From positions 1 through 64,000 of the IMG/VR virus record IMGVR_UViG_3300030508_000022: DNA of 64,000 nt. One strand, 5' to 3'. This DNA is from a virus. A program made the position numbers and the translations under genes. Under the pieces are notes generated by a model, which made no database searches, was not told where the DNA came from, and was given only the letters and a program-made list of their open reading frames with translations. Positions 26,141-64,000 of this stretch are shown here, piece after piece. Numbering within the stretch: position 1 is the first letter of the stretch; each line of letters starts with the position of its first letter.

Positions 26141-29100
26141 TCAATAATTCCCGAATCTACCGACTTCCATTCCGATGTCGTTGATGTAGGAAGCATTGAT
26201 AGATAGGTTCGTAGCCATACCAGCCATTGACGGCAAATCTGTAATACCTAGGGCTGCCATGAAGATGGCATATCCAAGGGCGTGCAGAAAGTCGTCTGGC
26301 TTGTCCTGATAGCGGCTGTAGCGTCGAATAGTGGCTCCATGAGAGTTTGTTGCGTCCTCAGTGAAGGTAGCGAGCAAATCTCTGGAATACTGCTCGAACC
26401 AGCCTCCCTTAGGAAACCGAATCCGCTGAGCCTTGATAAGAGTGAACACGATGTAAATCAGTGTTGTTCTATCTACGGTAAAGCAATTGTTGGTATTGGG
26501 CATGAAGAACTTCTTGGTGGTCCCATAGGCAATAGAACCTGTGGGCACCCCCATGTAGGCTCCAAGGTTGGGGTTCTGTACGGATCCAACGAATCCAGCA
26601 TCAGCTCCTACAATTTCAATTCTACTTCCGGTTACGCTTTTGAGGTAATCTCCGATAACATAGTGACGCTGCTCATCCGGCAATCCTGTGGGCCTAATAG
26701 CCCCTAGAACGTCGAAGCAGCCGTCTCTGTACCCGACGGCTACACCAACAGTAAAGCTGACCACCTCAGCACCGCCCCAGTCAACGCCCCCAGCTACCCT
26801 GTGGTAGATCTGAGCGTTTGGTGGTTCGTGTTGGTCTATGTCTAAGATACTAGCCTCTTTAATGTCCTTCTGAGTGATTGGAACACCGCCCTGTGAGGTG
26901 GGTATTCCTAAGCACTCTTGGAGAAATCTAGATTGTGAATATGCGCTAGACCCATGAAGTTTATTATAAATAGTTTCGATGTATCTATCGTGTGGAAATA
27001 TACGGTCTGGAACAATAATTTGGGGGACATGATACCCCTCTGAGTCACGGTGGATTGGGTCGTATTCGTACGACCTAATCCACTTTCCTCTGGTCACATC
27101 TATTACCTTGCCACATTTTATGCAGCAAATCCCTTTGATCTGAATCATTTCCAAAACTCTTCCAGCTTCGGTAGGTACATTTTCGTGCCCACACCCACAT
27201 TTCATTATCCACTCGTTTTGAGTCGAGTTTTCAAAAAGCTTGGTAAGTGTGTTGTCAACGCCACGAGCGGTTCCGAAATAGCTTTCGTATCGATAATCAG
27301 ATGTTCCTAATGTTTCTCTAATCTGAGGAATGAAGTCTGCATTAAGATCCTGACAGTTGTGTACGCCTATCCCGTTAGCAAAGAATGTGTGGTTCTTCTC
27401 TGTCTCTATATCATATACATCATCTACCCCAAGGTAGGCAATCCCGACGATGTCTGAGAAGTCCTCAGTGCTTCCTTTTTCTTGAGTTTGTTTTCTCTCC
27501 TTTTTTGTATCTGTTTTGCATGGCGCACTGGATCCTGTCTCAGCCTCATTCCGGTTTCCCTTCCCCTTTTTCTTGAAGCCTCTAAGTTCTCCCAGTATCT
27601 CTCTTTGCGTTTTGTGTTCATGGCGTCTCGATTCCTTTCCACCCATCTTGTCTTTACTCCCTTCTTGGCGATAGCACTGCACTTCTCGCCACAATACGGT
27701 TGGATCCCATTCCCCACGAATGGTTGCCCACAGAGCCTGCATGGCTTCTCCAGGTTTACTTCCTGATAGGCCCACTTGTACTCCATCTCTGGGAATGAGT
27801 ATATCCTGGTGTTTTCTAAGAGCACCTTGGTCCCAACCACATCCACTGTGATTATGTAATACGTCTTGTTCCTGCTTTTCTTCTTTATTTTTATGGCTTT
27901 GCAGCTCACTCCATTTTCTTTTAACCAGCTCACCAATAGACTGGATTCCTCTTTTGAGAATGATTGGGTATTGAACACAAAACTTCTCCCTGTATTGGAT
28001 AGGCTCCCATCGTCCATCATCCACCACGCAATCGCTTCCCAGGTCAAGTGTTTGACCCATTCTTGAGTTACCTTCTTCTTTGGCAAGCCCTTGTCTGAAG
28101 TACCCGTGTAGCAGATCTGGTGTATAGAGTCTAGGCATGGAGCACTTAGGGATCCAAAAACGCAGCTTTTCTCCCCCCAGCCCCTGTTCTCTACAATCTT
28201 GGGCTTTGTCCTCACTAGGTCCCCCAACACTTCCGCTTTGCGGTTGCAGTATCGTTCCTGACACTGGCCGTGTGTTACGTAATACTTGGGGTGGGATCTT
28301 GGAGTGGTACCACCCACTTTTGTCAGACAGGAATCTCCCAATAGTGTCCCAAAGACCATTTGCTCTTGACTGTGATTTAATGGCCTTAGCTTTGCTTGCT
28401 CTTGGGCATCTGTTAGCTTCATGCCACGGTAGTATTTCTGCAAGGTATATCCATCCCCTGTCGGACATGATTCGCTCGTTCCCTGTGCAGTCGAGGTGGT
28501 CCCCGTTGGATAAAATGATTCGCCAGACGTGTCGTTTGCCTTTGTGCTTAATTGATTTAATTGTGTCATATTCTAATTTTAACGTTGATTCGTTAAATCC
28601 AACAATACGATCCCCTGGTTTTTTGTCAACTAGAGTGTCAAGATTGATCCCGTCAAATAGGGCTGTAGAGCCCAAATTGCATTCATCCAGGTAAACTTCA
28701 TCGGTCGTCACCCCCAATGAATTAGATACGTTATTGAAGCAAGAAATGCCCACAAATCTGCTCCCACTTACATAACTCTTTTCGTTGACATTAGCTGTAC
28801 AGGTGTTATTCACAACCGGCCATGGCAATAGCTTGCCCTGGGTCATTGGAGCCATAAACATTGAGTGTAGACGCTGAGTATAAATGCTTAGTGGGGCAAC
28901 ATACATTACTCTAAAATATGACCTCCACCAGCAGTTCATTAATATAGATGCACTGATGCTCGTAGATTTTCCTAATTGACGAGCGCACATGTAAACATGC
29001 TTTCTAACCTTTCTGGTTTTGCTAAAAATCCCAGCAAACATCGGACGACGGTGTAAAATATTTAAAGGTTTCCCTTGGAAACTTATACTTGCGGGTACTA

Positions 29101-29185
29101 GGTCGACCAAGTCGATCTTGTTTGATAGTTGGCCATACAGGCGCTCCAGTTCCTTATCGCTTACTGGGATGATTTGTTTGTCCAT
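26141..29185 (-). CDS. terL: Terminase large subunit with an in-frame intein
   Basis: This packaging motor cuts concatemers and drives DNA into the head. The 1014-residue frame splits as N-extein 1-168, intein 169-610 and C-extein 611-1014, giving a 572-aa spliced terminase. A Walker A-like motif (CARQLGKST) lies at residues 67-75. Walker B ends VYLDE at 168, and the intein sits right after it, before Cys-Gln-Asp-Leu-Asn. The C-extein has a CGCG...CIKCG zinc site and a nuclease domain opening with GGVDWGG and including ADAGF. The intein begins at Cys169 and ends His-Asn before Cys611. Splicing is required for a working ATPase. Confidence 0.9.
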   Translation of the reverse strand: MDKQIIPVSDKELERLYGQLSNKIDLVDLVPASISFQGKPLNILHRRPMFAGIFSKTRKVRKHVYMCARQLGKSTSISASILMNCWWRSYFRVMYVAPLSIYTQRLHSMFMAPMTQGKLLPWPVVNNTCTANVNEKSYVSGSRFVGISCFNNVSNSLGVTTDEVYLDECNLGSTALFDGINLDTLVDKKPGDRIVGFNESTLKLEYDTIKSIKHKGKRHVWRIILSNGDHLDCTGNERIMSDRGWIYLAEILPWHEANRCPRASKAKAIKSQSRANGLWDTIGRFLSDKSGWYHSKIPPQVLRNTRPVSGTILQPQSGSVGGPSEDKAQDCREQGLGGEKLRFWIPKCSMPRLYTPDLLHGYFRQGLAKEEGNSRMGQTLDLGSDCVVDDGRWEPIQYREKFCVQYPIILKRGIQSIGELVKRKWSELQSHKNKEEKQEQDVLHNHSGCGWDQGALRKHQDILIPRDGVQVGLSGSKPGEAMQALWATIRGEWDPTVLWREVQCYRQEGSKDKMGGKESRRHEHKTQREILGELRGFKKKGKGNRNEAETGSSAPCKTDTKKERKQTQEKGSTEDFSDIVGIAYLGVDDVYDIETEKNHTFFANGIGVHNCQDLNADFIPQIRETLGTSDYRYESYFGTARGVDNTLTKLFENSTQNEWIMKCGCGHENVPTEAGRVLEMIQIKGICCIKCGKVIDVTRGKWIRSYEYDPIHRDSEGYHVPQIIVPDRIFPHDRYIETIYNKLHGSSAYSQSRFLQECLGIPTSQGGVPITQKDIKEASILDIDQHEPPNAQIYHRVAGGVDWGGAEVVSFTVGVAVGYRDGCFDVLGAIRPTGLPDEQRHYVIGDYLKSVTGSRIEIVGADAGFVGSVQNPNLGAYMGVPTGSIAYGTTKKFFMPNTNNCFTVDRTTLIYIVFTLIKAQRIRFPKGGWFEQYSRDLLATFTEDATNSHGATIRRYSRYQDKPDDFLHALGYAIFMAALGITDLPSMAGMATNLSINASYINDIGMEVGRFGNY
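27356..28681 (-). other. Intein in TerL, 442 aa, inserted at Walker B
   Basis: Splicing motifs are present. Block A starts CNLGSTALFDG, then PGDRIVGFNE. A block-B-like DHLDCTGNERIMSD lies near intein residues 50-65. Block F reads VYDIETEKNHTFFANG and block G is GVHN followed by Cys. Between block B and block F the terminase frame stays open for over 300 codons but reads as low-quality, Arg/Lys/Gly-rich sequence. The recognisable endonuclease there lies in another frame. Confidence 0.85.
27424..28422 (-). CDS. LAGLIDADG homing endonuclease nested in the intein in an alternative frame
   Basis: In a frame shifted from terL, a protein starting at about MKLTDAQEQ (28422; the open frame extends to 28569) contains two LAGLIDADG-type helices, FGTLLGDSCL and AIAWWMMDDGSL. 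A four-Cys zinc site (CRLCG, YCGEKC) and a long basic helical tail follow. It ends at a TAG inside the C-terminal splicing region. In a normal intein this domain would be in frame with the splicing blocks, so small shifts on both sides have uncoupled it. Its own start signal is weak. It could also be reached by frameshifting. Confidence 0.7.
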   Translation of the reverse strand: MKLTDAQEQAKLRPLNHSQEQMVFGTLLGDSCLTKVGGTTPRSHPKYYVTHGQCQERYCNRKAEVLGDLVRTKPKIVENRGWGEKSCVFGSLSAPCLDSIHQICYTGTSDKGLPKKKVTQEWVKHLTWEAIAWWMMDDGSLSNTGRSFVFNTQSFSKEESSLLVSWLKENGVSCKAIKIKKKSRNKTYYIITVDVVGTKVLLENTRIYSFPEMEYKWAYQEVNLEKPCRLCGQPFVGNGIQPYCGEKCSAIAKKGVKTRWVERNRDAMNTKRKERYWENLEASRKRGRETGMRLRQDPVRHAKQIQKRRENKLKKKEALRTSQTSSGLPTLG

Positions 29186-31700: not shown

Positions 31701-33437
31701 ATGTCATCCTCAATTCTAAGAGATTATGTTCTTTCCAGAATACCGATAGTTTGGGTGTATAGCATTGAGGAAGATAGGCTCTTGCAACAAGAGGCCAACT
31801 TCCTGCTAGACAAGGGTACAACCAATAGGGTGTACATTTACGATGCTAGCAACACCATTTATGACTTTCAGAAACGTGGGGGTAAGCCTCAGGTAATGGA
31901 GGTTGGTGGCCCTACCGAGGCTATCAGTGAATTTATCAAGCCCTCGAGATTCAAGTTTGAGGACTTTGTTGTAGATAAACAATGTACGTGGGATTTAAAT
32001 GACAATGGGTTTCCATCTAAATCTATCATGGTACTTCTTGACGCCGCTTTCCATATGGTGGATTCAAACAACGTCAAGCACACCAACGCAAGGCTGACTC
32101 GCGCAATTAAGTCAGCTGCTCAGGAGTTGATTAAGCAACAAAAGAGTTTGGTGTTTGTGAATCACCACACAGATATTCCTATCGAATTAGAAAACATCGT
32201 CACTTATGTTGAGCACAAGCTCCCAGATGTGAAGATGATGAAATCCATCGTCAGGAGCAGCCAGGGTGCTTTGATCTCAGAGTCTATCCCAAAGATTACT
32301 CTTACAGATGAAGAGCAGGGGGTGATTGCTCAACAGCTCACTGGACTGACTAAGTGGCAGGCAGAGAATGTCCTGTCTTTGGCAAACAGAGAGAATGCAA
32401 TCGACATAACCTATGGCACTGGAGATAAGCCGCCTAGAACCTTTAAGGGGGAAGTACTCCGAAGAGAGAAGGCTAGGCTCATCCAGAAGTCAGGAGTTCT
32501 GAAGATCATAGAAGTTAATCAGGGGCTAAGCTCTGTTGGTGGCATGGAGAATCTGAAGGCGTGGGCAAAGGATAGGGAGTTGATATTTAGTCAGGGGGCC
32601 AGGGATGACGGAATTGATCTTCCAAGGGGCATATGGGTTGTAGGCCCATCTGGAGTTGGTAAGACTCATGTAGCACAAGCGCTAGCTAAAGAATGGGATA
32701 GAACTATCCTTAGGTTAGATGTGGCTGCTTGTATGGGTAGCTTGCTTGGGGAATCCGAGGGAAAATTGTTGCGTGCCCTAGGTGATGCTGAAGCACAAGC
32801 ACCATGTATTCTCTTTATTGACGAGGCTGAGAAGCTGATGGCAGGCGCTAGTGGAGTAGTTAGCGATGGGGGTACATTTCAGAGAATGTATGGCACATGG
32901 CTTACTTGGAATCAATCTAGGAAAGCAGATGTATTTGTTGTTTGCACAACTAATAGCGTACAAGATGTCCCAGCTCCCGCACTTAGAAAAGGTAGGGTAG
33001 ATGAAATATTCTACGTAGGTCTACCAGGCCTAAAGCAGAGAGTGGACATCTTCAACATCCACCTAAACAAAAGAGGGTGGAATCCAGAGGAGTATGGAAT
33101 TGATCTTGGCTTACTAGCCATGAAGACTCCACACCGAACTGGATCAGAGATTGAGCAAATTGTAAACGAGGGGCTAATTAGAAAAGGAAAGGCGATTGGG
33201 TTTGGAAAATCCAACCCCATCAAAACAGATTATTTCCTTGATGCAATTGGCGATGTAAAGATCATGGCAGAGCTAAACCCAGATGAGGCTTCTGGATTGT
33301 TCAAGTGGGCTAAATCAAGGGGGGTTATGATGGCAAATGCAGACGATGATTTGACGCCACCCAAAAAATCTTTCTTGAGTAAGACAGGAAAGCCTGATCC
33401 AATGGAACCCATCAAAATTAACGAAGAGGAGTTATAA
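31701..33437 (+). CDS. AAA+ ATPase of the Ycf46 type
   Basis: The 578-aa protein matches the Ycf46 plan. An N-terminal half of about 270 residues opens with IPIVWVYSIEEDRLL. A hinge reads SVGGMENLKAWAKDRE. The AAA+ module has Walker A GPSGVGKT at 315-322, the ESEGKLLRAL motif and Walker B LFIDEAE near 371-377, with an Arg-rich second region (CTTNSVQDVPAPALRKGR) behind it. Ycf46 proteins are known in cyanobacteria, plastids and some phages; their substrate is unclear. It is followed by Ycf35-like and DUF2997-like genes, the usual neighbours. Confidence 0.75.
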   Translation: MSSSILRDYVLSRIPIVWVYSIEEDRLLQQEANFLLDKGTTNRVYIYDASNTIYDFQKRGGKPQVMEVGGPTEAISEFIKPSRFKFEDFVVDKQCTWDLNDNGFPSKSIMVLLDAAFHMVDSNNVKHTNARLTRAIKSAAQELIKQQKSLVFVNHHTDIPIELENIVTYVEHKLPDVKMMKSIVRSSQGALISESIPKITLTDEEQGVIAQQLTGLTKWQAENVLSLANRENAIDITYGTGDKPPRTFKGEVLRREKARLIQKSGVLKIIEVNQGLSSVGGMENLKAWAKDRELIFSQGARDDGIDLPRGIWVVGPSGVGKTHVAQALAKEWDRTILRLDVAACMGSLLGESEGKLLRALGDAEAQAPCILFIDEAEKLMAGASGVVSDGGTFQRMYGTWLTWNQSRKADVFVVCTTNSVQDVPAPALRKGRVDEIFYVGLPGLKQRVDIFNIHLNKRGWNPEEYGIDLGLLAMKTPHRTGSEIEQIVNEGLIRKGKAIGFGKSNPIKTDYFLDAIGDVKIMAELNPDEASGLFKWAKSRGVMMANADDDLTPPKKSFLSKTGKPDPMEPIKINEEEL

Positions 33438-44796: not shown

Positions 44797-44848
44797 GCCT
44801 ACCCATTGGTAGGCTATCGTAGATCGCCACAGCCCCGCGCAAGGGGCT
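44797..44848 (+). terminator. Double hairpin before the polymerase gene
   Basis: GCCTACC (44797-44803) pairs with GGTAGGC (44808-44814) around CATT. AGCCCC (44831-44836) pairs with GGGGCT (44843-44848) around GCGCAA. Neither is followed by a T-run. They may attenuate transcription or protect an RNA end between the primase operon and polymerase. 44849-44880 is an A/C-rich leader. Confidence 0.4.
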
Positions 44849-44880
44849 CGTTGCGTCTGCACACAAACACACACAGAAGT

Positions 44881-45738
44881 ATGAGCGCACCAACTAAATT
44901 AAGTATATTGCCACTCCACACTCATACAGCGTATAGCCTTATGGATGGAGTGTCAAAAATAGACGAATACATAAAGTACTGCCAGGAGAATGGGATTGAG
45001 GCTTGTAGTTGCACTGACCACGGGTATGTCCTTGGGCTATATGACCTCATAACCAAGACCTCAAAAACAGATATTAAAGGGATACCAGGTGCAGAAATAT
45101 ACCTTCTTCCCCACAAAGAATACAACGTAGCACCAGGCAAAAAGGCATTCAAATATTTTCATCTAACCCTATGGGCGATGAACCAAACTGGGTATAAGAA
45201 CCTACTTGCTTTATCAAATGCTTCATGGGGCCCAGGTAGGGTTGTAAACATATTTGGAAACTTGAAGCCCAGGGTTGCTTGGGAAGACCTAGAGGAGTTC
45301 AATGAGGGAATCATCTGCGGCAGTGGATGTATTGAGGGGCCTATTGTAAAGCCGTATCTTCGTGGAGAGAATGACATGGCCGCTTATGGCCTAGAAAGGC
45401 TCATGGAGATATTCGGATCGGACAATAGGCTATTTATGGAGGTAATGCCCCACAACGTCGATAGAGACTGGGAGACAAAGGGAGTTATACAAGTAGAGGG
45501 AGAAAATGGATTTATGTATACCTTCAAGGAAACAGATATGCTAGAAACAGACATCGGTACGATTTCTGCTCTAGAGGCTTGCACCAGGAAAGTTACTGAG
45601 GTATTTTCATCCCTCAACGACAGACCACAAGAGTTCCCTCTCTCCAATCGAATAATTGACTCTCCAATGAGCATAAGCGAAGAAGAGTTATACGAACTCA
45701 CTGGTCCAACAAGGATAATTGAAACGCATGAGAGTTAA
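44881..45738 (+). CDS. dnaE: DNA polymerase III alpha, PHP part (split gene, piece 1)
   Basis: The start ATG at 44881 (MSAPTKLSIL) follows an ACACAAACACACAC leader. The PHP domain motifs PLHTHTAYSLMDG and CTDHGYVLG and later conserved segments (HLTLWAMNQTGYKNLL, ICGSGCIEGPIV) are clear. The frame ends at TAA 45736-45738, after an extra stretch of about 85 residues not obviously part of PHP. The next gene, in the +1 frame, continues with the last PHP segment. Either two polypeptides are made or the gene is frameshifted. Confidence 0.75.
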   Translation: MSAPTKLSILPLHTHTAYSLMDGVSKIDEYIKYCQENGIEACSCTDHGYVLGLYDLITKTSKTDIKGIPGAEIYLLPHKEYNVAPGKKAFKYFHLTLWAMNQTGYKNLLALSNASWGPGRVVNIFGNLKPRVAWEDLEEFNEGIICGSGCIEGPIVKPYLRGENDMAAYGLERLMEIFGSDNRLFMEVMPHNVDRDWETKGVIQVEGENGFMYTFKETDMLETDIGTISALEACTRKVTEVFSSLNDRPQEFPLSNRIIDSPMSISEEELYELTGPTRIIETHES

Positions 45739-48511
45739 CAAAAGCAGCTGGAGAAAAGTAGAGAGAGGTATGTTCGTGCGAATGGAATGCTCTCCACAAG
45801 CACAGCATGGCGACTTACAGAAAGCGGGCAATGAGCTCATCATGAAGATCGCTAAGAAAGAAGGTCTTCCTCTTCTGCTTACTTTGGATGCTCACTTTGT
45901 GAATAAGGACCAGAAGGTTGTTCAAGATCTCCTACTGCAAAACGGTAGGGGGGAGGACGGCGGTCTCAAGTTCTTCACAAAGTACTACCAATTAAACACA
46001 GAGGAAGCTTGGGATAAGTGGAAGAGTCTGCATGGCAATACATCAGCTCAATTTGTAGAGGGGGTAGAGAACAACCATGCATTGGCAGCAATGTGTGAGC
46101 GTGTACAGCTCAAGAAGGAATACCATCTTCCAGAGGTAGAGATGTCCAGAGAGGTTATCGAACTGGACTGCGATCTGGATACCAAGTACAAGCACCACCT
46201 ATTTGATCTGATCACTAGATATGGTCGTCTACCAGATGATCCTGTCTACAAGGCTAGAATCAAGCAGGAGGTAAAGCTGATCGCAGAGAATGGTAAGGTA
46301 AACCTTCTCCCATACTTCTTTGCACTACACGATTTTTGCGAGACAGCTAGGTCTATTGGGATTGAGATTGGTGCTGGTCGAGGTTCTGCTGGAGGTTCGC
46401 TTCTGGCATATCTCTTGATGATCACCCATGTTGATCCCATTCACTATGGATTGTCCTTTGACCGATTCCTCTCTATGGGACGAATCAACAGAGGAAAGCT
46501 GCCAGATATCGATGTGGACTTCAGTGACCCAGGTAGGCTTGTTGAGTGTCTTAAGGCAAAGCATGGTGACAAGTTCATCAGGGTTTGTACTACTGGCACC
46601 AACAAGGTCAAGAGCGCAATCAAAGACGTATCTAGGGTTCTGTTGAATACAAAGGAAGATGAGGCGATGAAGCTTCGTGTGGACAATCTATGCAAGACGA
46701 TTCCAGATATCCCACAGGGGTTTAATGATCTCTTGGGTTGGCTAACTGGGTGGACAGATGACGATGGTATAGTCCACATGGGGGAGATAGAAAACAACAA
46801 GGAGCTTGGAGAGTTCTTTGATGAATTTCAGGCTGTGAGGAATCTTGTGTTTCAGGTTCTTGGTATCCCTAAATCACTTGGAAGACATGCTAGCGCATAT
46901 TGCTTGTCTGACGTGCCGATTGTGGAGATTGTCCCTGTCTGTACTATCAACAACGAAGACTGTACTCAGTTTACAATGGAAGCTGTTGAGGCTATGGGGC
47001 TTATCAAGTTCGATCTTCTAGGACTCAATACCCTAAAGGATATTGGCAACTGTGTTAAGCTCATCAAGAAGCGTCACAAGATCTCAGTGGATATTTACAA
47101 AATCCCAGAAGACCCTTTGATCTTTGATGAGATCTGCCAAGGCAGAACCGAAACTGTCTTCCAGTTCAAAGGCCCAATTCCAACACAAACCTGCATGCAG
47201 GTTCAGCCTAGGAGCGTTCTAGATCTAGCAGCCATCACCGCAGCATGTCGTCCTGGTACGATGTATGCAGAGATGATTGATGAGGAAACCAACGAGAAGA
47301 CTACTCTCATTGATCTTTGGATTAAAAGGCGTCAGGGCATAAAAGCTGTTACGTTCTTACACCCAGACCTTGAAGATATCCTGTCGTCCACTCATGGTAT
47401 CGTTTTGTTCCAAGAGCAAATTGCTGCCATGTTCCAAAAGTCTTGTGGCTACACAGGAGAGCAGGCTGACGAGATTCGAGAGATCATCGGCAAGAAGAAG
47501 GCTGACAAGATGAATGAGATTCTACCAGATATCCGCAGAAGGCTTGCAGATAGAGGGTGGAATGCAGAGCAGACATCAGCCTTCGTTAGTCTTTGTATAG
47601 CTAGTAGCTCGTACTCTTTCAACCTTAGTCATAGTGTGGCGTATTCCTATATGGCATACATCTGTGCTTGGCTCAAGGGTCACTATCCTCTTGAGTGGTG
47701 GACTGCTATCCTGCAGAACTCTACTCATGAAGATCTAGAAGAGAATGCAAAATTCTTCCACGAGAGAGTTAAGCACCCAGACATTAATGTTAGTGATGTC
47801 GACTTCTATATTATCGATGAGAAATACGAGAAGATTGTATATCCACTAACAATGATTAAGGGGATTAAGAATGCTGCTGTCGAACTAAAACAGAATGCTC
47901 CATACAAGTCCCTAAATGATTTGTTTATGAGGTCTGATCGTAGAATCGTCAGCAAGAGAGTTATATCTGCATTGATCTGGTCTGGTGCTCTGGATGAAAT
48001 GCCAGAGGCCGCTGGAGATAGTGTAACAGATAAGAGAAATAATTTGATGACGGAATACCTAAAGCTTAGGTTTTCTGTCAGCAAGAAAAAAGAGGATAAT
48101 GTCCCTCACGTCCCTCTAAGTAGGGGACAGGTAGAGATGCTTGAAAGCAAGAGTCTTTGCATCGGCAACCCTGACATAGTTGAGTTCTTCCGGTCACAAG
48201 GAAGGACTCGTTGTGTCGACATTGCTACGGCTTCATTGCTTCCAGCCGATGAGCGCGTCTGCTGTGCAGGCGTAGTTGTAGGCTTCAACAAGATAAAGAC
48301 GAAGAAGGGTGATGACATGTGCTTCATTGACATGGGAAATAAGGAACACAAAATGAGTGTTACTATCTTTCCCAAGTTGTATGCAGGCATGGCAGATAAG
48401 GTGAAAGAGGAAGCGGTAGTATTTGTATATGGGAAGATTAATGTATATGGAGGCAGGAAGTCTATCCTTGCAGATGGTATTGAGTTCTACGACATCGACG
48501 AAATAAACTAA
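45728..48511 (+). CDS. dnaE: DNA polymerase III alpha, PHP end plus polymerase core (split gene, piece 2)
   Basis: The first ATG after the upstream in-frame stop (TAA 45716-45718) is at 45728, inside the end of piece 1. The protein resumes PHP with LPLLLTLDAHFVNKDQKVVQ, then carries GRGSAGGSLLAYLL and the catalytic PDIDVDFSDP segment near residue 258, the helix-hairpin-helix region, and a C-terminal OB-type domain with CAGVVVGFNKIKTKKG. It lacks proofreading motifs, so the separate exonuclease gene probably supplies them. This is the phage's main replicative polymerase. Confidence 0.88.
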   Translation: MRVNKSSWRKVERGMFVRMECSPQAQHGDLQKAGNELIMKIAKKEGLPLLLTLDAHFVNKDQKVVQDLLLQNGRGEDGGLKFFTKYYQLNTEEAWDKWKSLHGNTSAQFVEGVENNHALAAMCERVQLKKEYHLPEVEMSREVIELDCDLDTKYKHHLFDLITRYGRLPDDPVYKARIKQEVKLIAENGKVNLLPYFFALHDFCETARSIGIEIGAGRGSAGGSLLAYLLMITHVDPIHYGLSFDRFLSMGRINRGKLPDIDVDFSDPGRLVECLKAKHGDKFIRVCTTGTNKVKSAIKDVSRVLLNTKEDEAMKLRVDNLCKTIPDIPQGFNDLLGWLTGWTDDDGIVHMGEIENNKELGEFFDEFQAVRNLVFQVLGIPKSLGRHASAYCLSDVPIVEIVPVCTINNEDCTQFTMEAVEAMGLIKFDLLGLNTLKDIGNCVKLIKKRHKISVDIYKIPEDPLIFDEICQGRTETVFQFKGPIPTQTCMQVQPRSVLDLAAITAACRPGTMYAEMIDEETNEKTTLIDLWIKRRQGIKAVTFLHPDLEDILSSTHGIVLFQEQIAAMFQKSCGYTGEQADEIREIIGKKKADKMNEILPDIRRRLADRGWNAEQTSAFVSLCIASSSYSFNLSHSVAYSYMAYICAWLKGHYPLEWWTAILQNSTHEDLEENAKFFHERVKHPDINVSDVDFYIIDEKYEKIVYPLTMIKGIKNAAVELKQNAPYKSLNDLFMRSDRRIVSKRVISALIWSGALDEMPEAAGDSVTDKRNNLMTEYLKLRFSVSKKKEDNVPHVPLSRGQVEMLESKSLCIGNPDIVEFFRSQGRTRCVDIATASLLPADERVCCAGVVVGFNKIKTKKGDDMCFIDMGNKEHKMSVTIFPKLYAGMADKVKEEAVVFVYGKINVYGGRKSILADGIEFYDIDEIN

Positions 48512-61329: not shown

Positions 61330-61575
61330 ATGGCAAACGGTAACATTCGTATCACTGTCTCCTTCGGAGGCAACCAGCTCCCAATCAATGGTCTCCCTGT
61401 GGGGTCCACTCTGAGCTGCATTCGTGCCAACCGCAACGTTTCTGCAGCCCTCGGCTACAGCAACGAGAACGTGGAGTTCGTCCTCAACGGCTCCCGCGCA
61501 AGCGACAATACTGTCATCTCTGACGGCGATGTCGTTAACGTTCAGCACAAGGCACACGAGAAGGCTTCCGCCTAG
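61330..61575 (+). CDS. Ubiquitin-like (beta-grasp) protein, 81 aa
   Basis: The protein has the strand-helix-strand order of beta-grasp folds: IRITVSFGGNQLPINGLP, then a helix around VSAALGYSNENVEF, then VLNGSRASDNTVISDGDVVN, where the final DGDVVNV strand is typical of ThiS/MoaD/ubiquitin-like proteins. The C-terminus (KAHEKASA) lacks a terminal Gly-Gly, so processing or a non-Gly linkage would be needed for conjugation. The E2-like and E1-like genes follow within 2.5 kb. The gene is somewhat GC-richer than its neighbours, and a strong terminator follows. Confidence 0.65.
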   Translation: MANGNIRITVSFGGNQLPINGLPVGSTLSCIRANRNVSAALGYSNENVEFVLNGSRASDNTVISDGDVVNVQHKAHEKASA

Positions 61576-61592
61576 TCTCGTAGGCTAATTTT

Positions 61593-61626
61593 ATCCCCCA
61601 ATCTCGTTGCGCCGAGATTGGGGGAT
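61593..61626 (+). terminator. Strong hairpin terminator after the ubiquitin-like gene
   Basis: ATCCCCCAATCTCG (61593-61606) pairs perfectly with CGAGATTGGGGGAT (61613-61626) around TTGCGC. A T-rich stretch (TTATTTTTTTT) lies at about 61638. It may limit read-through so that the ubiquitin-like protein is made in excess over the enzymes downstream. Confidence 0.7.
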
Positions 61627-61673
61627 ATCTTAGACATTTATTTTTTTTATATCCCACAAGTTCTTCAAAACAC

Positions 61674-62483
61674 ATGAAACCTCTTATTATCCTTAACGAA
61701 GACGGTGTCGCATACCGTATGGAGCCATTCGCTCTACAAAATGTTAGTGAGATCATCGAACGAGTCTCAAATCAGTCGTTCTCAACCATCAAAAAGCATA
61801 CGACTTTTGAGGTTGCAGAATCAGTTGGATCATCAGGCGTACAGTACAAAAGGGTGCCATTCCACCTGTCCATTACGAAGAAGAACGAAGCTGTCTACTG
61901 GGGATATATTCCTGGGATTGTCTTTGATACCTCCTTCCAGATTGTGGAACACAGTGGAACCCCTCGATTGATCGCTGATTTTACTCGCTCAGCAACTGAC
62001 GCATTCCAGGATAGGATTTACTGCTCATCGGAATCTCTCAGTACTTCGGATTGCAAGGTTCGGTTCTTGGTTGCTATCTCTCTTACTCCAGGGGGGTCAG
62101 GCAATTACGAAATCAATGCATATTTCTGCTTCCAACTTTTTGATGTGAAAGCGGGGTTAATTATGGGCAACTTCTTGCCGTGTATCCCAAACGTCTTCGC
62201 TGACGCCAGGGTTTGCATGGGTAGTGCCTTTGATAAGTACACCAATCCTGTCAAAACCTCGGATGAAGAAATCCAGCGTACCCTCAAGTCATTCTTTGAG
62301 AGCCGCATGAATTCGGATCTGATCACTCAAGGTGCAAATCGCATCGAGTTGGCAGACCAGCTAATTGGGTGGAACAGAGAAAAGAAGCAGGTTGCTCCCA
62401 TCAAGTCCGCCAAAACAATCCTCACCGTCAAAGTTGGAAACTACTATCTTGATGGCCTTCCATACGCCACAGTTGGTTGGTAA
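61674..62483 (+). CDS. E2-like protein, PRTRC system B type
   Basis: The 269-aa protein carries FLPCIPNVFADARVCMGS at residues 167-184. Its PNVF..xRVC pattern with Cys181 resembles the E2-like active site of PRTRC-B proteins and the HPN...ICL site of ubiquitin-conjugating enzymes. Two preceding beta segments (VPFHLSITKKNEAVYWGYIP) fit the PRTRC-B N-terminal region. In such systems E2-like proteins accept an activated ubiquitin-like protein from ThiF-type E1. The call rests on motif and on neighbours (beta-grasp protein before, ThiF-like after). Confidence 0.65.
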   Translation: MKPLIILNEDGVAYRMEPFALQNVSEIIERVSNQSFSTIKKHTTFEVAESVGSSGVQYKRVPFHLSITKKNEAVYWGYIPGIVFDTSFQIVEHSGTPRLIADFTRSATDAFQDRIYCSSESLSTSDCKVRFLVAISLTPGGSGNYEINAYFCFQLFDVKAGLIMGNFLPCIPNVFADARVCMGSAFDKYTNPVKTSDEEIQRTLKSFFESRMNSDLITQGANRIELADQLIGWNREKKQVAPIKSAKTILTVKVGNYYLDGLPYATVGW

Positions 62484-62492
62484 TACACATAC

Positions 62493-63599
62493 ATGAAATC
62501 CTTATTCCAAGAAATGTTGGAGTTGCCTGGATTGCCTGTCAGTTCCGAAACTATTTTCGGAGCTACTCGTCGGTCCAGGATGTTGTCTCTTCTTGACGAC
62601 TTTAGTTATCTCAAAAAAAATGGAGGGGAGCTGAAAATATTCCCACTTACTGCAGAACAAAAAGCGGATAGGCGGGACCGAAGTTTTATATCTAAGGAGC
62701 TATCCGAGTCCTTTGAGATTGGTCAATTCCAGTGCCAAATATTCGATGCAGTTGTTAAAAAGCTGGAAGCAGAGGTTTCCAGAGGAGAAGATTCTCCTTG
62801 GGCTTTGCGATTCATTGCAGAGATGCCTCGACAGCAGGAGCCACAACAGGCTCCTGTACCACAAGCCCTACCAGAGGTTCGAGTGGAGGAACAACCCCTT
62901 ACGGGAGTTTTCCCAGCTGATGCATTCAATACTCCAGTGGCGCAGCAGGCTACTCCAGCAGTTGTTCCAGTTGTTGCCCCAGCTGCCTATCAGCCTACAA
63001 CTCCACGTCAACAAGTTCCCATTGCACCAATTATTGGTGGAATTGGGGCTGAAGTAAATTGGGCGGATATAGCTGAGCCAACACCTGCACCTAATCGTGG
63101 TGCTCCTCAGGTTACAGATGGATTCGTCGATATGGATCCAGCTGACTTTGAGAATCTTCCTACGGCAGCTCCTACTACCCCTCCTCCCGCTCCCACGGCA
63201 GCAGAGGCAGCAGAGGCGGGAGAAGTTCCTCGCGCTACCATGGCCAATGAAACTCCAGCTGTTGGCGAAGGTGCGATTACAGGATTTGGTGAAATTCGTA
63301 CACCTGAGGCTGTGGATCAGATTGTTACACCACCAGCTGTTGGTACTACGGTGGTTCAGGTTACTGATGGTGCAGGTGCCGCTGGATTGTGGCATACACC
63401 AGCTGTTGGTAATCAATTCTTTGGAGTTAATCAGGGAGATGACCACATAGTGTTTACCCCTACTGATCACAACCTGTTCATTACTGCTGATAACAATCTG
63501 GCAGTGGGTGATACTCCAGCTCCAGTAGCTGATGTTCCAGATGTGCAGCAGGCAGTTCGGAATACAGTTCGTAGGCGCGTACGCGCAATAAACGAATAG
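62493..63599 (+). CDS. Protein with Pro/Ala-rich linker between two small domains (368 aa)
   Basis: Residues 1-115 form a helical, charged N-terminal domain (MLELPGLPVSSETIF, WALRFIAEM). Residues 115-290 are a Pro/Ala/Val/Gln-rich low-complexity linker (PAPTAAEAAEAGEVPRATM and others). The last 70 residues include HIVFTPTDHNLFITADNN and a very basic end (RNTVRRRVRAINE). It lies between the E2-like and E1-like genes. No JAB/MPN protease motif is present, although PRTRC systems usually carry one. A scaffold or target is possible. Confidence 0.5.
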   Translation: MKSLFQEMLELPGLPVSSETIFGATRRSRMLSLLDDFSYLKKNGGELKIFPLTAEQKADRRDRSFISKELSESFEIGQFQCQIFDAVVKKLEAEVSRGEDSPWALRFIAEMPRQQEPQQAPVPQALPEVRVEEQPLTGVFPADAFNTPVAQQATPAVVPVVAPAAYQPTTPRQQVPIAPIIGGIGAEVNWADIAEPTPAPNRGAPQVTDGFVDMDPADFENLPTAAPTTPPPAPTAAEAAEAGEVPRATMANETPAVGEGAITGFGEIRTPEAVDQIVTPPAVGTTVVQVTDGAGAAGLWHTPAVGNQFFGVNQGDDHIVFTPTDHNLFITADNNLAVGDTPAPVADVPDVQQAVRNTVRRRVRAINE

Positions 63600-63625
63600 T
63601 ATACGCACTAACTGAAAGTTAAATG

Positions 63626-63660
63626 GGTCAGTGCCGAAAAGTCGGCACTGACCATTTCTT
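63626..63660 (+). terminator. Hairpin terminator before the ThiF-like gene
   Basis: GGTCAGTGCCGA (63626-63637) pairs perfectly with TCGGCACTGACC (63642-63653) around AAAG, followed by ATTTCTT. It lies after the Pro/Ala-rich gene and before a leader (AACCAAAAAACAATTAATC) for the ThiF-like gene. Confidence 0.6.
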
Positions 63661-63699
63661 AGATAAACAAAAATCAACCAAAAAACAATTAATCAAAAT

Positions 63700-64000
63700 A
63701 TGAAACAGAACTACTACGTCATCGGATGTGGAGGGGTATGCAGCTATTTCTTGCCAGCATTCCTCAAGACCCTCAATTACTCCAAGGAGTTTAAGGGGTC
63801 AACAGTAACCCTAGTTGATGGCGATACAATCGAGGACAGGAATTATGAGCGTCAGCTCTTCGCCAGCGGATTGACGGGAATGAACAAGGCAGAGGCCTTG
63901 ATGTCGGTTCTTGGTGAAAGTCACCCCAACATCAATCTCAAGACACATTCCGAATATGTGACTGGATCATTCCCCATTAAGGATGGTTCTGTTGTCATTG
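63700..64000 (+). CDS. ThiF/E1-like enzyme (truncated by window end)
   Basis: The first 100 residues are visible from ATG 63700. The N-terminus YYVIGCGGVCSYFLPAFL is a Rossmann Gly-x-Gly-Gly-x-x-Ser nucleotide-binding loop. VTLVDGDTIEDRNYERQLF is the ThiF/E1 segment in which Asp and Arg bind ATP, with GMNKAEAL after it. ThiF-type E1 enzymes adenylate ubiquitin-like proteins and pass them to E2. The DGDTIEDRN..RQLF form is close to ThiF proteins of PRTRC cassettes. The catalytic Cys would lie beyond the window. Confidence 0.75.
   Translation, partial: MKQNYYVIGCGGVCSYFLPAFLKTLNYSKEFKGSTVTLVDGDTIEDRNYERQLFASGLTGMNKAEALMSVLGESHPNINLKTHSEYVTGSFPIKDGSVVI

Follow-up and report, generated by a model that had tools for sequence, protein, structure and literature searches.

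Does a tailed phage make its own ubiquitin-like conjugation system and, if so, what would it modify during infection? The question is raised by the viral record IMGVR_UViG_3300030508_000022, of which we analysed the first 64,000 nucleotides (the window: bases 1-64000 of 73,391). The end of the window carries, on the + strand, the beginning of a gene cluster encoding a ubiquitin-like modifier, an E2-like protein and an E1-like adenylating enzyme, and the cluster continues beyond the window with a JAB/JAMM peptidase, so that the four-part core is present in one place. The record is that of a tailed phage of bacteria, with genes for a terminase large subunit, baseplate J, DNA polymerase III alpha, a replicative helicase, a primase and a UvsX-like recombinase. 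Our answer, which we regard as likely, is that this phage makes a complete and reversible ubiquitin-like conjugation system and uses it during infection.

Components of the cassette

For the E1-like enzyme (237 amino acids, 63700-64413, +, crossing the window edge at 64000) the "ThiF-like" assignment is secure: it scores above the cut-off of Pfam ThiF (E = 1.4e-10), and its best NCBIfam match is TIGR03736, PRTRC_ThiF (1.1e-10). It has the GxGG, DxD and NxxRQ motifs and the Lys, Asp and Cys of such enzymes (G9/G11/G12, D40/D42, N48/R51/Q52, K63, D104 and C170). A first alignment had given the impression of an enzyme devoid of catalytic Cys, which a wider alignment ruled out: the cysteine is conserved in all 19 E1s of phages and plasmids and, when E. 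coli ThiF and MoeB are added, the column of Cys170 holds a Cys in 33 of 33 sequences, the ThiF residue at this place being presumably its catalytic Cys184. A profile of phage E1s from which the window enzyme was excluded also aligns with the canonical PRTRC enzymes (hhalign 99.7%, 2.8e-25).

The JAB peptidase (403 amino acids, 66035-67246 of the record, +) matches TIGR03735, PRTRC_A (6.4e-5), and Pfam Prok-JAB (1.8e-4, below the cut-off), and its profile aligns with that of PRTRC_A (hhalign 91.5%, E = 8.7e-7). Its JAMM motif is intact—E68 and H125-x-H127-x7-S135-x2-D138—and the Glu, both His, the Ser and the Asp are conserved in all 15 sequences of an alignment of phage and plasmid proteins. 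The E2-like protein (269 amino acids, 61674-62483, +) matches Pfam Prok-E2_D below the cut-off (E = 0.0019); its profile meets that of PRTRC protein B in the active-site region (hhalign 90%, E = 1.4e-6), where unrelated pairings used as a control scored 0.6% or less. Its motif P172-N173-x7-C181-x-G183 places a Pro-Asn pair eight residues upstream of the Cys, with the Asn-Cys spacing of the HPN-x7-C motif of eukaryotic E2s (UBC) and without the His. Asn173 and Cys181 are invariant in 15 of 15 distant relatives from phages and plasmids, and the His is missing likewise from the E2s of operon type 6d (Iyer et al. 2006, PMC1779556). A sequence search of the PDB with the E2 and JAB profiles gave no meaningful match. 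Each of these scores is weak when taken alone; this is outweighed by the fact that three proteins of one cassette match three members of one known system, which strengthens the assignment.

The modifier (81 amino acids, 61330-61575, +) escapes sequence searches: no Pfam or NCBIfam family passes, with a weak ThiS match in Pfam (0.07) and none to TIGR03738, PRTRC protein C. Its AlphaFold2 model, computed from an alignment of 25 sequences, has a pLDDT of 84.9 and predicts a beta-beta-alpha-beta-beta-beta arrangement followed by a disordered tail (residues 77-81), that is, a beta-grasp fold with a flexible C-terminus. In a Foldseek comparison with the PDB the best matches were SUMO and the Caldiarchaeum ubiquitin (E about 1e-5, TM 0.65-0.70). 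With PRTRC protein C the modifier is thus connected by fold, gene position and tail motif only.

An earlier note, made on the window, had proposed here a PRTRC-type cassette of a tailed phage, with genes at 61330, 61674 and 63700 on one strand for a beta-grasp protein, an E2-like protein with Cys181 and a ThiF/E1-like enzyme. All three are found at these places, on the + strand, with matches in keeping with the assigned roles, and the structure prediction that it had suggested supports the first of them; the phage structural and replication genes of the record agree with the setting. The same note had seen no JAB protease, but this was an effect of the window edge: extending the contig past 64000, as it had advised, recovered both the JAB gene and the rest of the E1.

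Next to the modifier gene the DNA has a further feature, a hairpin (61592-61627, +) whose stem is 15 bp long and whose folding energy of -28.9 kcal/mol was equalled by none of 200 shuffled sequences (z = -5.6). A U-rich tract starts about 10 nt downstream of it; a simple scan for terminators does not call it. Of 33 related loci, 16 have a stem of at least 9 bp behind the modifier gene, a count which overstates their independence as the loci are kin to one another; behind the E2, E1 and JAB genes the figures are 1/33, 1/33 and 1/31 respectively. About half of the marine relatives have a hairpin here, and several of these do not share a related stem sequence. The hairpin is terminator- or attenuator-like, and separates the modifier from the enzyme genes. 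If it acts in this way, it would favour the production of more modifier than enzyme.

Two other reading frames complete the order of the cassette, Ub-E2-X-E1-Y-JAB. X, between E2 and E1 (62493-63599, +), encodes a lineage-specific, Pro/Ala-rich accessory protein of 368 amino acids with no family match in NCBIfam or Pfam and no relative in other cassettes; Y, between E1 and JAB (64414-66027 of the record, +, beyond the window), is an open reading frame of 537 codons. We considered whether they could be common parts of such cassettes, or the counterpart of a 109-residue protein found in marine phages, and comparison with the other cassettes led us to reject both ideas.

Recurrence in phages and plasmids, and the tails of the modifiers

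The earlier note regarded a phage copy of this cassette as unusual, a view that the searches do not support. Scanning viral contigs with the window E1 retrieved six marine contigs at 33-35% identity, and a profile scan retrieved 58 loci; the same four genes stand in the same order in about 40-50 marine viral contigs, a recurrence that makes the cassette more than a chance neighbourhood. In the main clade the order, where the sequence reaches, is Ub (~75 residues), E2 (~260-310), the small protein mentioned above (~110), E1 (~240) and JAB (~380). Among named isolates, the nearest PolA to those of the marine contigs are from the Pelagibacter phages HTVC023P and HTVC027P (about 39%). One locus, L019, is intermediate: as in the window, a further gene separates its E1 from its JAB. 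A tree of E1s groups the window with L019 and the marine phages in a single clade (SH-aLRT 99), with canonical PRTRC (96) lying outside it and E. coli ThiF and MoeB branching separately; the tree was made by a quick method and its deep branches are weak. Scans of viral contigs with JAB alone and with the modifier profile returned nothing, nor did the E1 profile over genome contigs; the PRTRC_C model found nothing in 385 genomes of one class, in a scan that had no positive control and is uninformative.

The window terminase has relatives, among 50,697 phage records, only in Salmonella phage Arash and Vibrio phages D69, D181 and D148 (24-27%), and all four encode E1 and JAB. More distant versions of the cassette occur in Bacillus phage KLEB27-3, Acinetobacter phage ME3, Flavobacterium phages and Crassvirales, including the isolates crAss001 and DAC15. 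In ME3 the cassette is interrupted: the modifier was not found, the JAB appears incomplete—its PRTRC_A-like gene (L068:1748-2182, +) breaks off at the first of the JAMM histidines—and a tRNA and other genes precede ThiF. The Crassvirales sets (L076:1942-6352, L067:1272-5639 and L065:1474-5651) are divergent, and most of their proteins bear a hypothetical or a thiamine biosynthesis annotation. They comprise a modifier candidate in which K-x-[KR]-S-G-[AG] comes after a beta-grasp-like N-terminus, a possible E2 with Cys-Xaa-Gly, a JAMM protein and a ThiF. There the E2 and modifier are putative, assigned by motif and position only; crAss001 probably carries a variant of the cassette.

The comparison of the modifiers sheds light on their C-termini. 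The window modifier ends in VVNVQHK-AHEKA-SA, so that the earlier note was right to say that it lacks a final Gly-Gly, but not to find this unusual, as x-x-x-K-G or K-A is the usual ending of PRTRC protein C and of its phage relatives. In the alignment of 25 phage relatives Ala75 and Lys78 are invariant and Ala79 nearly so, and the common signature is x-x-x-K-[G/A]: ASSKA in the marine phages, AGEKG in L057, ANSKA-HG in L019, TGTKG in Arash. The tails of PRTRC protein C are alike (GTKA in Pelobacter, GAKG-AHAQI, VGTKG, ATYKG), with one exception in seven, VKTNG. The AHEKA-SA of the window thus looks like the signature plus a two-residue tail, and from these tails we infer that the JAB would cut after K-A or K-G.

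Several relatives carry more than one copy of this signature. Gp199 of KLEB27-3 (L078:218-925, +), which scores above the PRTRC_C cut-off, is composed of four tandem ubiquitin-like units, each ending in KAGVKG just before the Met of the next, and VPHD69_0307 of Vibrio phage D69 (L075:7295-8086, -) has three units, each ending in TGTKG, with spacers between them. To judge from their sequences, both are tandem "polyubiquitin-like" precursors. Plasmids of Bacillaceae (pAD3 and a Cytobacillus plasmid) have tandem ubiquitin-like genes (L071:1-870, and L072 upstream of 1010) whose units end in AGTKG and which precede the E2, JAB and E1 genes, in an order resembling that of KLEB27-3. In Arash the modifier is an unannotated gene of 66 codons ending in GTKG (L066:107-307, +), masked by gp251c, which is in the wrong frame.

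Besides the cassette, the record shows some other peculiarities. Its terminase reading frame (26141-29185, -, 1014 amino acids) resembles terminases over residues 55-178 and again over 612-974, with a long stretch between the two, possibly an intein or a fusion. DNA polymerase III alpha (44806-48511) is matched over two overlapping open reading frames (profile positions 28-222, then 219-1055), which may reflect a split gene or a frameshift; a search by this polymerase for a close relative of the phage gave one near-identical fragment, ending before the cassette. A 578-residue AAA ATPase (31701-33437, +) is related to the uncharacterised phage family phrog_8638 (E = 1.6e-88).

Proposed function and rival explanations

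Sequences and models show the fold of the modifier, the four genes in their order with intact catalytic sites, a hairpin and a wide recurrence; on this basis we infer the following scheme. The JAB would trim the two-residue tail of the modifier, between AHEKA and SA, and would cut the tandem or extended precursors of the relatives likewise. The E1 would then adenylate the exposed C-terminus at the expense of ATP and take the modifier onto Cys170; Cys181 of the E2 would receive it and hand it over to an amino group on its target protein or proteins, from which the JAB could later strip it. A second task of the JAB, freeing the targets of the modifier, is made probable by the marine phages: most of their modifiers already end at the signature (ASSKA) and need no trimming, yet the JAB is kept.

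As for the targets, the cassette usually adjoins genes of DNA replication or repair: PolA and a gene that we take, from our own reading of its sequence, to be VRR-NUC-like in the marine phages; primase, uracil-DNA glycosylase and resolvase in the crAss phages; and, for the PRTRC cassettes of some plasmids, ssb/topA or a helicase. The most likely targets are therefore phage or host proteins of the replication or takeover stage, rather than an anti-phage defence.

Several observations nevertheless weigh against this interpretation. The window E1 is short and has no separate Cys domain. The match of the E2-like protein with the PRTRC_B profile spans only ~26 columns around the Cys, and its structure model (pLDDT 64) is too weak to be used, has no significant structural match and does not confirm a UBC fold. 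Between the modifier and PRTRC protein C there is no detectable profile homology (hhalign 0.4%), and the two-residue tail is deduced from one further case, that of L019, and from the longer extensions of PRTRC relatives. Proximity to replication genes is weak evidence. Finally, the Arash record labels its E1 (gp246c, L066:3499-4539, +) and E2 (gp248c, L066:1519-2274, +) "structural protein".

Such labels would favour a role in the virion, the modifier being conjugated to phage structural proteins, or the enzymes packaged, for assembly or early infection; the same label is carried by genes adjoining the terminase, and one further entry reads "cell wall hydrolase, structural protein". However, the basis of the Arash label is not stated in the record and we found no paper on it, the cassette lies within replication modules in the marine and crAss phages, and the crAss001 literature examined does not mention it, so that we consider this role unlikely, though worth keeping in mind. 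Slightly less likely still is a counter-defence, in which the JAB and the modifier, if not the cassette as a whole, would disturb Bil or type II CBASS by deconjugation or as a decoy. Host defences of this kind do exist, Bil acting on phage tails as cited in PMC12135933, and the E1 and JAB match weakly the PADLOC models for E1-E2 (3.7e-6) and JAB (0.0065) respectively. But the phage JAB is nearer to PRTRC_A than to the defence model, plasmids keep related cassettes, and an E1-E2 pair that appears complete and active exceeds what a decoy or a deconjugase would need.

The resemblance of the E1 to ThiF/MoeB and the weak ThiS match of the modifier recall rather a sulphur-carrier system, where a ThiS/MoaD-like carrier is activated by a ThiF-like protein, to serve some metabolic or modification reaction, and processed by a JAB, as in sulphur-assimilation neighbourhoods; clusters of ThiS, E1 and JAB devoid of E2 are indeed known for sulphur transfer (PMC1779556). 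Here, by contrast, an E2-like protein with an invariant Cys is present throughout the clade, neither a rhodanese nor any gene of sulphur metabolism turned up next to the cassette, and the tail is K-A or K-G instead of Gly-Gly, which leaves this explanation with little probability. No more credible is a defence or exclusion cassette that the phage would carry against its competitors: Bil is also a four-part Ub/E2/JAB/E1 set (PMC11354881), and blocks phage assembly as cited in PMC12135933, but its specific features (two-domain BilA, CEHH motif, two-domain E1) are absent, and the association with replication genes extends across phage lineages.

We thus return to a conjugation system serving the infection itself. 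Extended to other phages—tailed phages of several unrelated lineages running their own ubiquitin-like modification, with polyubiquitin-like precursors, E1, E2 and deconjugating JAB, by which replication proteins of phage or host, or virions, would be regulated, for infection and not for host defence—the proposal has in our opinion an even chance of being right. What is known of ubiquitin-like conjugation in bacteria comes chiefly from defence against phages (Bil, CBASS), besides the uncharacterised PRTRC cassettes of plasmids; the presence of whole cassettes in many phages that are not related to one another suggests that viruses, too, use this chemistry. Isolates whose hosts can be cultured (crAss001 and DAC15 on Bacteroides, KLEB27-3 on Bacillus, D69 from a Vibrio collection) make the role of a PRTRC-type system directly testable, and the K-[G/A] tail and the tandem precursors lead to simple predictions on protease cleavage and E1 specificity.

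Comparison with known systems

The chemistry, the PRTRC family, the PRTRC_A labels on KLEB27-3 and ME3 and the phage pairs of ubiquitin-like protein and JAB were already known. KLEB27-3 and ME3 respectively bear a "PRTRC_A" note and the name "PRTRC system protein A" near a ThiF gene; the KLEB27-3 record, whose gene order is unlike that of the window, mentions neither the full four-part set nor the tandem modifier. The phage case described by Iyer, Burroughs and Aravind (2006, PMC1779556) is a ubiquitin-like domain with a JAB in lambdoid tail clusters that have neither E1 nor E2. In the part of the literature covered we found no paper on PRTRC-type cassettes in phages, be it on a phage set of all four parts, on its wide distribution or on polyubiquitin-like precursors made by phages; an earlier description may exist.

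ThiF/ThiS and MoeB/MoaD share with the cassette the adenylation chemistry and the aligned Cys170, but these pathways have no E2 and no conjugation. Bil (BilABCD) has, like the window, modifier, E2, JAB and E1 in one operon; BilA contains two ubiquitin-like domains, BilB a CEHH motif, and BilD an inactive and an active adenylation domain with a Cys domain (PMC11354881). In the window, the modifier has a single ubiquitin-like domain in its 81 residues, the E1 a single domain in 237, and the E2 has D187, Y189 and K194 after C181 at the positions of the E, H and H of CEHH. Closer is operon type 6d, with a small single ubiquitin-like protein, a His-less E2-like protein and separate E1 and JAB, plus a helical protein, which differs in having been described from bacterial genomes (PMC1779556).

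The PRTRC plasmids remain the nearest comparison, and the differences are several. With the NCBIfam models TIGR03734-03738, 03741 and 03742, the window proteins score far below the curated cut-offs: 41.3 bits against 144.75 for the E1 (TIGR03736), 22.6 against 101.8 for the JAB (TIGR03735) and 12.1 (E = 0.09) against 131.45 for the E2-like protein (TIGR03737). The ParB, E and F models had no match in the whole 73-kb record, which may be incomplete, in a search that for E lacked a positive control; the same search finds F in two PRTRC plasmids, but not in Arash, D69 or KLEB27-3. The plasmid order is ParB-E-C-F-B-A-ThiF, unlike that of the window, and the window E1 belongs to the separate clade described above. 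As the scores fall below every curated cut-off and ParB, E and F are absent from the searches of the record, the cassette is not a canonical PRTRC member. On the other hand, PRTRC is the best named family for its E1 and JAB, and the plasmid A, B, C and ThiF proteins (TIGR03735, TIGR03737, TIGR03738 and TIGR03736) provide the same four components, with the same invariant residues and an x-x-x-K-[G/A]-like tail: on sequence grounds, the phage cassette is a predicted conjugation core of the PRTRC type, or type 6d.

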